Shown here one piece after another: positions 55,355 to 57,188 of a stretch of 64,000 nt of DNA; the first letter of the stretch is position 1; each line of letters starts with the position of its first letter. Source of the stretch: an uncultured beta proteobacterium (GTDB taxonomy: Bacteria; Pseudomonadota; Gammaproteobacteria; Burkholderiales; Burkholderiaceae_C). The stretch is from assembly GCA_903838565.1 (NCBI GenBank), contig CAILZB010000058.1, positions 1 through 64,000 on the forward strand, read 5' to 3'. The notes below the pieces were generated by a model. That model saw only the letters and a program-made list of their open reading frames with translations. It was not told the DNA's origin and made no database searches. The position numbers and the translations under genes are program-made.

Positions 55355-55753
55355 ATGGCCGCACCTGTACCCCGCAAACCCTCCGAATTTGATGCGACGC
55401 TGACGCGGGTGGAGCAGGCCTTGGCCGAGGTGGGCGCGCATCTGGCCGACGGCCAGGCGGGCGAACTGGAAATGGCTTGCCAGACCCTGCAAGGCGCGAT
55501 GCTCGACTGCTCGCGCGTGGACCCGCGCTGGCTGCAGTCCGTGTCGTCCGACGCGACGTTGAAGGCGCGTTTGAAGGTGGTGCGCGCGGGCATCGCCCAG
55601 GTGCGCGAGAACATGGCGCGCCGGGCCGCTGCGGTGCAGCGCTCGCTGCAAATCCTGCTGCCGACTAACGGCGCTACCACCTACGGCCGCGGCCCTGCGG
55701 CCTACGGCGCCGGGCAGAAATCGCTCGCATCGTTTACATCTCTATCCGCTTAG
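55355..55753 (+). CDS. flgN: Probable FlgN-family export chaperone
   Basis: The 132-residue helical protein lies 15 bases after flgM, where flgN is expected. FlgN escorts FlgK and FlgL to the export gate. Sequence similarity is weak, as usual for this family: leading helices (DATLTRVEQALAEVGAHLAD) and a central LKVVRAGIAQVRENMARRAAA. The C-terminal 30 residues (GRGPAAYGAGQKSLASFTS) are low complexity. The call rests mainly on position and length. Confidence 0.75.
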   Translation: MAAPVPRKPSEFDATLTRVEQALAEVGAHLADGQAGELEMACQTLQGAMLDCSRVDPRWLQSVSSDATLKARLKVVRAGIAQVRENMARRAAAVQRSLQILLPTNGATTYGRGPAAYGAGQKSLASFTSLSA

Positions 55754-55875
55754 GTTGGGGGGTCGGGTCTTGCGCCGACTTGCGCGCCTTTGCCGGGGTT
55801 TCGTCGCGGCGGATGCGGTGGTCTTGTTCGATCCGGATTTGCACCCGAGGCATGCCGGGTCTCGCCCCGGCGGGC

Positions 55876-56372
55876 GACTCACTTTCTCTTGCTTCGCCAA
55901 GAAAAAGTAAGCAAAGAGAAGGCGAGCCGGATTCGTCGGCCCGCTGCGCGGGCGCACTGCGATGCTCGGCGCAGCCGGGGTCTGGCTAAACTCGCTTCGC
56001 TCAAACAGACGCCAGCCCTGATCCGGCTGCACCTGCGCTTCTCGTCTCCTCATAACGGCTTGGGAGCCAAAGACAAAATCCGAAATCCAGGACCCACAAG
56101 GACGCGCCATGGCGCGTCCTTGTAGGCTTTGCTTCAGGCTGTTGGACTTTGTATCCGGACTTCCCCCTCTGTATGCGCCGAGCAGTGCAGCAGAGAGCGG
56201 ATCAGGGCGGACGTTGTTTGAGCGAAGCGAGTTTAGGCCGACCCCGCTCGCTGCGATCAGCGCAGGTTGCCCGCAGCGAAGCGGAGGGACGCAGACAGCG
56301 GGGTCGCCTTTTCTTTGGTAACTTTCTTTTGGCGACGCAAAAGAAAGTTACTGCGCAGTCGGGCGCACATCC
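55876..56372. repeat. Large imperfect inverted repeat between flgN and fliA
   Basis: Two related segments face each other. Copy A (about 55876-56030, plus) contains TGGCTAAACTCGCTTCGCTC and an ACTTTCTCTTG / CAAGAAAAAGT hairpin. Copy B (about 56194-56372) carries the same blocks on the minus strand, with the perfect hairpin GTAACTTTCTTTTG (56318-56331) / CAAAAGAAAGTTAC (56338-56351). The centre is the 28-bp palindrome at 56096-56123. The surrounding gap, 55754-56471, has no convincing gene. Frames here resemble the spurious Arg/Ser-rich proteins often called in intergenic repeats. Confidence 0.75.
56096..56123. repeat. 28-bp perfect palindrome at the repeat centre
   Basis: The half-site ACAAGGACGCGCCA (56096-56109) is followed directly by its exact reverse complement (56110-56123). 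As RNA on either strand it would form a long hairpin, and it may end transcription of flgAMN or of fliA. No U-run is present on either side. Confidence 0.7.
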
Positions 56373-56471
56373 CGACAAAGCCTCGCGGGCTACGCGCACG
56401 TCACAACACATCATCGGTCAGCAGGACCATCTGCACCCCCAGCGGGTACGCCCTTCGCGCCAGAAGGGCTA

Positions 56472-57188
56472 TCAGTGATCCCGCATTTTCGCCCGCAGCC
56501 GCGCCACCGACTGGCTGTGCAGCTGGCATACGCGCGACTCGGTGATGTCGAGCACCTTGGCGATTTCCTTGAGATTCATGTCGTGCTCGTAGTACATGCT
56601 CATGATGTACTGCTCGCGTTCGGGCAGGCTCTGGATGGCTTTCACCAGCGACACACGGATGCGCTGGTCGCGCAGCAGCTGCATCGGATCGGCGCTCTCG
56701 TCGCCCGCGTAGCGGTCCAGAAAACCCTCTTCATCATCGCTGCCACGGGACATGTCTTCCAGGTACACGAGTTGCGTGCCGCGCACCTTGCCCAGCAGTG
56801 ACTGGTAGTCGTCCAGGCTCAGACCCAGTTGGGCGGCGATTTCGGATTCGATTGGACTGCGGCCCAGCACATGTTCGAGCTTGCGCACGGCCTGTTCGAT
56901 TTCCTTTTGGCTCTTGCGTCCGCCGCGCGACATCCAGTCGCCTTCGCGCAGTTCGTCGATCATGGCGCCGCGAATCCTCTGGGTGGCGAAGGTTTCAAAC
57001 TGCACCCCCTGGCTCACCTCATAGCGGCTCAGGGCTTCGGCCAGTCCGATCATGCCGACCTGGATCAGGTCGTCGACCTCGACGTTGGCGGGCAGCTTGG
57101 CGATCATGTGGTGCGCCAAGCGCCGCACCAGTGGCACGTATTGGCGCAGCGTGGCGTCACGATCCAGATGGCCGGTGGCGGTGTACAT
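56472..57188 (-). CDS. fliA: RNA polymerase sigma-28 factor for flagellar genes
   Basis: Class III flagellar sigma factor (238 residues). Region 2 contains VDDLIQVGMIGLAEALSRYE and FETFATQRIRGAMIDELREGDW. Region 3 follows with RKSQKEIEQAVRKLEHVLGR, and region 4 ends with MNLKEIAKVLDITESRVCQLHSQ. It is inhibited by FlgM, whose gene is 1.5 kb away. It is the last gene of the leftward flhB-flhA-flhF-fliA run, 45 bases after flhF. Confidence 0.97.
   Translation of the reverse strand: MYTATGHLDRDATLRQYVPLVRRLAHHMIAKLPANVEVDDLIQVGMIGLAEALSRYEVSQGVQFETFATQRIRGAMIDELREGDWMSRGGRKSQKEIEQAVRKLEHVLGRSPIESEIAAQLGLSLDDYQSLLGKVRGTQLVYLEDMSRGSDDEEGFLDRYAGDESADPMQLLRDQRIRVSLVKAIQSLPEREQYIMSMYYEHDMNLKEIAKVLDITESRVCQLHSQSVARLRAKMRDH

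Follow-up and report, generated by a model that had tools for sequence, protein, structure and literature searches.

The DNA analysed here (the window) is a stretch of 64,000 nt, on contig C58 of a Comamonadaceae-like genome, in which two flagellar genes converge on a 718-nt island that folds back on itself, and the question this locus raises is what such an island is and what its fold might serve. To the left lies a flgN-like gene (55355–55753, plus strand), an ORF with tblastn orthologues that stops within a few bases of the island; its product matches no Pfam family, and we call it FlgN-like because of the synteny with fliA. To the right lies fliA (56472–57188, minus strand), an ORF matching Pfam Sigma70_r2, r3 and r4, with FliA relatives in Rhodoferax, Acidovorax and uncultured beta-proteobacteria. 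The initial annotation had placed the island between convergent flagellar genes and had described it as two diverged arms, each with its own hairpin, facing each other around a perfect 28-bp palindrome, and all of this was confirmed. The 28-mer at 56096–56123 (P) is a perfect palindrome. The left and right arms match in inverted orientation at 76% identity over about 150 bases, far from a chance alignment (blastn, E = 2.9e-22), and contain inverted repeats of 60 nt (80%) and 36 nt (72%); an inner arm stretch (55948–56007, plus strand) is 80% complementary to 56215–56274. The hairpin of the right arm (56318–56351) is perfect and that of the left arm (55882–55907) has one mismatch. The predicted fold energy of the whole island is −384.9 kcal/mol, compared with −300.2 ± 7.7 kcal/mol in 20 shuffles, none of which was as stable (z = −11.0).

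Comparison with other copies divides the island into modules. Hairpin A (GTCGGGTCTTGCGCCGAC, 55762–55779, plus strand), recognized by module comparison, stands at the left end; with 1–3 mismatches it is found inverted at both ends of two copies (L025 and L054) and at one end of others. Hairpin B (GCCGGGTCTCGCCCCGGC, 55854–55871, plus strand) emerged from a palindrome scan and the same comparison. Profile matches (nhmmer, converted coordinates) place the left arm at 55853–56062 on the plus strand and the right arm, inverted, at 56160–56377 on the minus strand. The extent of 55754–56471 proposed initially holds in part: about 55758–56399 is family-like, whereas bases 56400–56436 had no match in any of the 15 loci compared and 56437–56471 is flank outside the element, 56437–56469 being 97% common with the nearest relative, which lacks the arms. 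Two ORFs in the island (55742–56110, minus, and 56149–56478, plus) were rejected as genes, as they have no NCBIfam match and overlap the inverted arms, and a tRNA origin was rejected because the window contains no tRNA. An Rfam search of window positions 55700–56500 gave nothing above the gathering cut-off (best 24.7 bits compared with 50), and a phage collection gave no match to the element.

The unit is not unique. Its left half matches 24 places in its own genome and its right half 18, self-matches included. Besides the window, copies lie on 12 contigs of this genome, ten of these near a contig end, so that some matches are probably halves of one unassembled copy; contigs C71 and C78, for instance, match the two sides of a single site in the related genome G004 (flanks compared by eye). 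Ten contigs (C51, C63, C65, C71, C78, C85, C90, C104, C128 and C139) end in or near the element, which makes it a likely cause of assembly fragmentation. Among 40 sampled genomes, 18, including the source genome, contain matches. Full copies follow one order, namely hairpin A, hairpin B, hairpin C with an adjoining strand that we call R3, an arm of about 200 nt, P, and then the same modules inverted, with variation in the outer modules and arms of about 200–300 nt overall. Left and right arms are mostly closer to their own kind elsewhere (82–98%, blastn pieces) than to each other (76%). The arms read plus then minus in 38 of 39 two-arm clusters, plus plus in one and never minus then plus; many of these clusters had been chosen from listings already in plus-then-minus order, and among seven chosen from singly listed arms six read plus then minus and one plus plus. 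Single-arm copies that end at P also occur, P closing the single arm in several copies where a second arm is absent within the bases shown. Ends vary and are often missing, as is the right end in the window, modules are shuffled between copies, and, judging by eye from the flanks, several sites keep an orthologous copy in more than one genome of the genus. One two-arm copy lies in a Variovorax replicon (L243, Variovorax paradoxus CP063167.1:173527-174205), flanked by a convergent gene for an ABC transporter and by a regulator gene, which adjoins a HigB annotated at only 84 bp; a fragment lies in a Comamonas plasmid. What lies between the two flagellar genes is a single copy of a non-coding palindromic repeat with two arms, dispersed in Comamonadaceae and their relatives. 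Among the matches listed in the open-access literature, no title or abstract opening pointed to a paper on this repeat family or on third-strand covariation.

Orthologous sites differ in what they hold. In the closest relative (97% FliA identity; L082 and genome G004) the flgN–fliA gap spans 58 bases, and its single hairpin reads as hairpin A of the window in reverse complement. A second relative (G002) retains 144 bases of a degraded arm (70%), G003 and the L083 locus have neither the element nor a VapBC-like pair, and a further relative (L184, G001:C33) has, instead of the repeat, a VapB-like gene (below the Pfam cut-off) paired with a PIN-domain gene, so that the gap looks like an insertion hot spot. 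Among 80 fliA loci of relatives, at many of which a neighbouring flgN was not identifiable by similarity, only L082 matched the element at E ≤ 1e-3, through the end hairpin and flank. Another site, C81, is flanked by genes for an EamA transporter and an RskA_C-domain protein, and G000, G001, G002 and G004 carry element sequence in it; G003 has about 60 bases there, with a short hairpin containing the TCTTGCGCC/GGCGCAAGA common to element ends. Filled, partial and empty orthologous sites indicate that sites change state. Because end-like hairpins occur at two of the three emptied sites, deletion and insertion are not separable, and these hairpins could be scars or older targets; the end hairpin at L082 would fit a deletion between short repeats inside two inverted ends. 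The proposal of a pair of mobile non-coding repeats was thus the best of the options in the initial annotation and is partly supported: the units are dispersed, non-coding and usually a facing pair, and mobility is what the presence and absence of copies suggests.

A search for a mobilizing enzyme turned up nine Y1_Tnp loci in five genomes of the genus, with only short, weak element matches (best E = 5.6e-4 over 37 nt) and no element copy flanking any of the nine, and hence no RAYT link. Neither a transposase for the element nor a target duplication, looked for at the flgN–fliA and C81 sites, was found. Each of the five genomes encodes a Y1_Tnp protein of about 240–255 amino acids (L175, L176, L178, L179 and L180), with genes bracketed by 25–27-nt inverted repeats (96–100%), some 820–850 bases apart; this is possibly a RAYT with its own REP.

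The surprise lies in hairpin C and the strand beside it; the initial annotation had noted a hairpin in each arm and had missed this third strand. On one strand, a pyrimidine strand Y (for example, CTTTCTTTTG) is followed by a loop, a purine strand R (CAAAAGAAAG), about 5 nt, R3 (AAAGAAAA) and, in most cases, GGCGA. R3 reads as R backwards and is neither its complement nor its copy. In the right arm of the window (pattern match 56304–56347, minus strand), the putative triplex hairpin consists of Y at 56338–56347 and R at 56322–56331, and R3 at 56309–56316 is a perfect mirror of R. The left arm (pattern match 55882–55925, plus strand) has a different stem class, with Y (CTTTCTCTTG) at 55882–55891, R (CAAGAAAAAG, one base off the family form CAAGAGAAAG) at 55898–55907 and R3 (AAAGAGAA) at 55913–55920, which mirrors the family form of R and matches the window's own R at 7 of 8 positions. 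Across the family, the stem CTTTTCTTTG/CAAAGAAAAG goes with R3 AAAAGAAA, CTTTCTCTTG/CAAGAGAAAG with AAAGAGAA, and CTTTTCTTG/CAAGAAAAG with AAAAGAA. The putative triplex stem measures 7–10 nt, the first loop 4–6 nt and the second mostly 5 nt. The stem itself covaries: 39 distinct hairpin C stems are 88.8% paired (G–T allowed), compared with a mean of 70.9% and a maximum of 75.3% in 2000 partner-strand shuffles, and both-sided changes at 11 of 14 pairs amount to compensatory change.

The mirror relation was scored in two sets of arms. The first comprised 66 arms, of which three were unparsed and seven lacked R3 according to the parser; the other 56 give 23 distinct R/R3 pairs. They scored 158 as mirrors, where permutations averaged 123 and none of 5000 was as high, and 153 as direct copies, where the average was 136 and 15 of 5000 were as high. 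With a free register, 22 informative pairs split into 11 mirror, 3 tied and 8 direct (39, 6 and 11 arms, respectively); this scoring is less clean and does not decide single pairs, in part owing to the invariant GG at the end of R3, and we rely on the fixed-register count. A pattern search that left R3 free matched 61 of 299 genomes of the family, some of them only through a hairpin read from the other strand, whereas a reversed control pattern matched none. Of the 150 matches listed from this search, 17 without R3 geometry (other-strand hairpins) were dropped and two had a symmetric R. In fixed register, the mirror suits all 131 informative arms among the matches listed (33 genomes) better than a direct copy does, with agreement at 8 of 8 positions in 118. 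Counted separately by stem class, the full mirror holds in 31/31, 17/19, 16/18 and 12/12 arms; four asymmetric classes each keep the mirror. A genome of another family has 14 of 14 arms mirrored (by eye), and a class-wide search matched 6 of 185 genomes, four of the matches (in G350, G363 and G433) being a hairpin without R3 on that strand. A few copies look intermediate, among them the window's left arm, where R has changed and Y and R3 have not, and one in G279, where R and R3 have the other form and Y does not. On a quick tree of 87 arms built without hairpin C, the stem class changes at least 31 times, a count made without a shuffled control. Gene conversion of a patch of about 35 nt (hairpin plus R3) could keep the mirror without repeated selection, which makes the number of independent class origins uncertain; the asymmetric classes may have arisen independently as few as three or four times.

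Because a mirror relation within one strand is inexplicable by Watson–Crick pairing, we turn to an intrastrand triplex. A purine third strand lying antiparallel to R (class II) can explain the mirror, and the opposite strand could form a pyrimidine version. Purine-motif triplexes are reported to be unable to form in RNA and pyrimidine ones able (Holder et al. 2015, PMC4666352, in the excerpted text), which makes DNA the likelier level. In our judgement the best explanation, and a probable one given the covariation, is that the element is a non-autonomous BIME/REPIN-like repeat that would act as single-stranded DNA with an intrastrand triplex.

The genes around the copies bear on this choice. 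In a junction survey of 54 clusters, at loci chosen regardless of gene orientation, a simple GC-frame gene caller placed 26 at convergent junctions, 26 at co-directional ones and 1 at a divergent one, with 1 left unassigned. The single divergent call overlaps an arm and is doubtful, the Variovorax copy L243 was called co-directional but is convergent in the deposited annotation, and L235 and L236 were counted twice because their arms enclose a gene. A circular chromosome has as many divergent as convergent junctions, and copies therefore avoid divergent sites. Those between co-directional genes include one in a branched-chain amino-acid ABC transporter operon and one immediately ahead of a TgpA-like gene, positions that speak against a strong terminator. 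Five terminator-like sites emerged from a consensus scan of 55600–56600, where shuffles gave 1.0 ± 0.8; four lie in the island, and none at P or hairpin C. The excess favours the double terminator considered initially, the positions and the copies inside an operon count against it, and a terminator role stands as a possibility. At L054 (G004:C18, near 1157), hairpin A directly abuts the ATG of the TgpA-like ORF, leaving no ordinary ribosome-binding site if this ATG is the start.

Facing arms enclose single genes at four loci (L203, L204 and L209 in genome G006, and L227 in genome G018). One enclosed gene encodes an SLFN_AlbA_2/HATPase_c_4 protein, which also scores 62 bits against a PADLOC pAgo model; another encodes a TonB C-terminal protein, and the products of the other two gave no match. 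At L203, L209 and L227, P is kept in one of the two arms; at L204 P is missing from the first arm, and of the second there is a fragment. Integron-like ends were considered for these gene-enclosing copies and rejected, as core motifs are present and form no convincing pair.

The strongest competitor is a transcribed structured RNA or 3′ UTR element, serving as an mRNA stabilizer, an attenuator or a bidirectional terminator, in which the mirror would reflect a pyrimidine-type RNA triplex on the opposite strand. The strong predicted RNA fold, the compensatory stems, the copies at gene 3′ ends and the surplus of terminator-like sites all suit it, yet no such site lies at P or hairpin C, copies occur inside operons, all Rfam families score below their cut-offs and the pyrimidine form of a triplex needs protonated C. 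The mirror symmetry does permit a Y.RY triplex on the other strand, possible in RNA according to Holder et al. (PMC4666352), whose excerpted text also reports that purine-motif triplexes do not form in RNA. We consider this reading unlikely.

A lower probability still attaches to the view that these are old, decaying repeats, spread only by recombination or gene conversion and devoid of present function, with a mirror inherited from a few founders. Orthologous copies that persist at several sites within the genus (flanks compared by eye), shuffled modules and the small number of asymmetric stem classes are what decay would leave; a mirror kept in four asymmetric stem classes, compensated stems and the avoidance of divergent gene junctions are not. 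Least probable of the three is a classical foldback MITE of a DDE transposon, moved by cut-and-paste through terminal inverted repeats: inverted hairpin A at both ends of L025 and L054, filled and empty sites, and the lack of recognized coding sequence would agree with it, but the ends vary and are often missing (including the window's right end), no target duplication was seen at two sites and single-arm copies end at P.

Under the preferred reading, a single-stranded repeat with a DNA triplex, the following course can be proposed. Exposed as a single strand, for instance on the lagging-strand template, the element would fold into one hairpin per arm, and each hairpin would take up R3 as a third strand, giving an intrastrand triplex like that of BoxC/PIT. 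Facing arms would then behave like a large BIME or REPIN. The structure might serve the copying or moving of the element, through an enzyme or through template switching during replication, and might also make the element prone to collapse to an end hairpin. Selection would purge copies from promoters, so that those at convergent and co-directional gene ends would remain. From the comparisons above we infer triplex formation, mobility and a mobilizing enzyme. More tentatively, selection may keep the triplex DNA fold because it is used to copy, move or protect a mobile palindrome, whose facing arms in some genera would enclose single genes; we regard this as a possibility somewhat short of even.

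Several known systems resemble the element. Bacterial MITEs are short, non-coding, inverted at their ends and dispersed, and so is this family, with inverted end hairpins in two copies, whereas fixed ends and, at two sites, target duplication were not found here. The intergenic repeats of Pseudomonas fluorescens are dispersed, 50–352 bp long, in some cases with inverted repeats, and show a tail-repeat-tail bias (Silby et al. 2009, PMC2718517); the excerpted text of that paper mentions no triplex feature, in a comparison made by description. REPs measure 20–40 bp, many with GTAG or CGTC tags, and, together with BIMEs and REPINs, share with our family non-coding palindromic units, composites of alternating orientation and a presumed non-autonomous nature (PMC2817692, PMC3116915 and PMC3733652, in part). 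By contrast, arms here are about 200–300 nt, no tag is conserved (a GTAG adjoining the window's P is not preserved in most other copies, by eye) and no RAYT is linked in this genus. Since size, tag and, in this genus, RAYT linkage all differ, we do not file the element under REP, BIME or REPIN.

Triplex-capable bacterial repeats have been known since BoxC. The nearly symmetric Escherichia coli consensus says little about whether the third strand is maintained in cells; in the present family R is asymmetric, so that mirror and direct copies can be distinguished. The in-cell relevance of intrastrand triplexes thereby becomes a comparative test with many natural variants, which also supply defined oligonucleotides with natural controls. 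The BoxC/PIT/TM_ECO repeats of E. coli are intergenic and consist of a pyrimidine strand, a loop, a purine strand, a loop and a second purine strand; five close inverted pairs are described, always one type with the other, and the excerpted text reports neither promoter nor terminator activity for them, nor any effect in vivo (Holder et al., PMC4666352). The search of Holder et al. (PMC4666352) allowed stems of 6–15 nt and loops of 1–6 nt, with Y-loop-R-loop-R3 on one strand. Our family has this order, stem and loop sizes within these settings, an R3 that mirrors R and inverted pairs of two types. TM_ECO is G/C-rich, with a nearly symmetric 37-nt consensus (CCCTCNCCC...GGGNGAGGG; PMC4666352, in part) that the copies here do not match; judging from this printed consensus, a mirror could hardly be told from a direct copy. 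The stems of the present family mix A and G (T/C paired with A/G, by eye), are asymmetric and sit within long arms that also carry hairpins A and B and P. The hairpin would thus work like those of BoxC/PIT, from which the family departs in its long modular arms, its asymmetric stems of mixed A and G and the covariation of its third strand.
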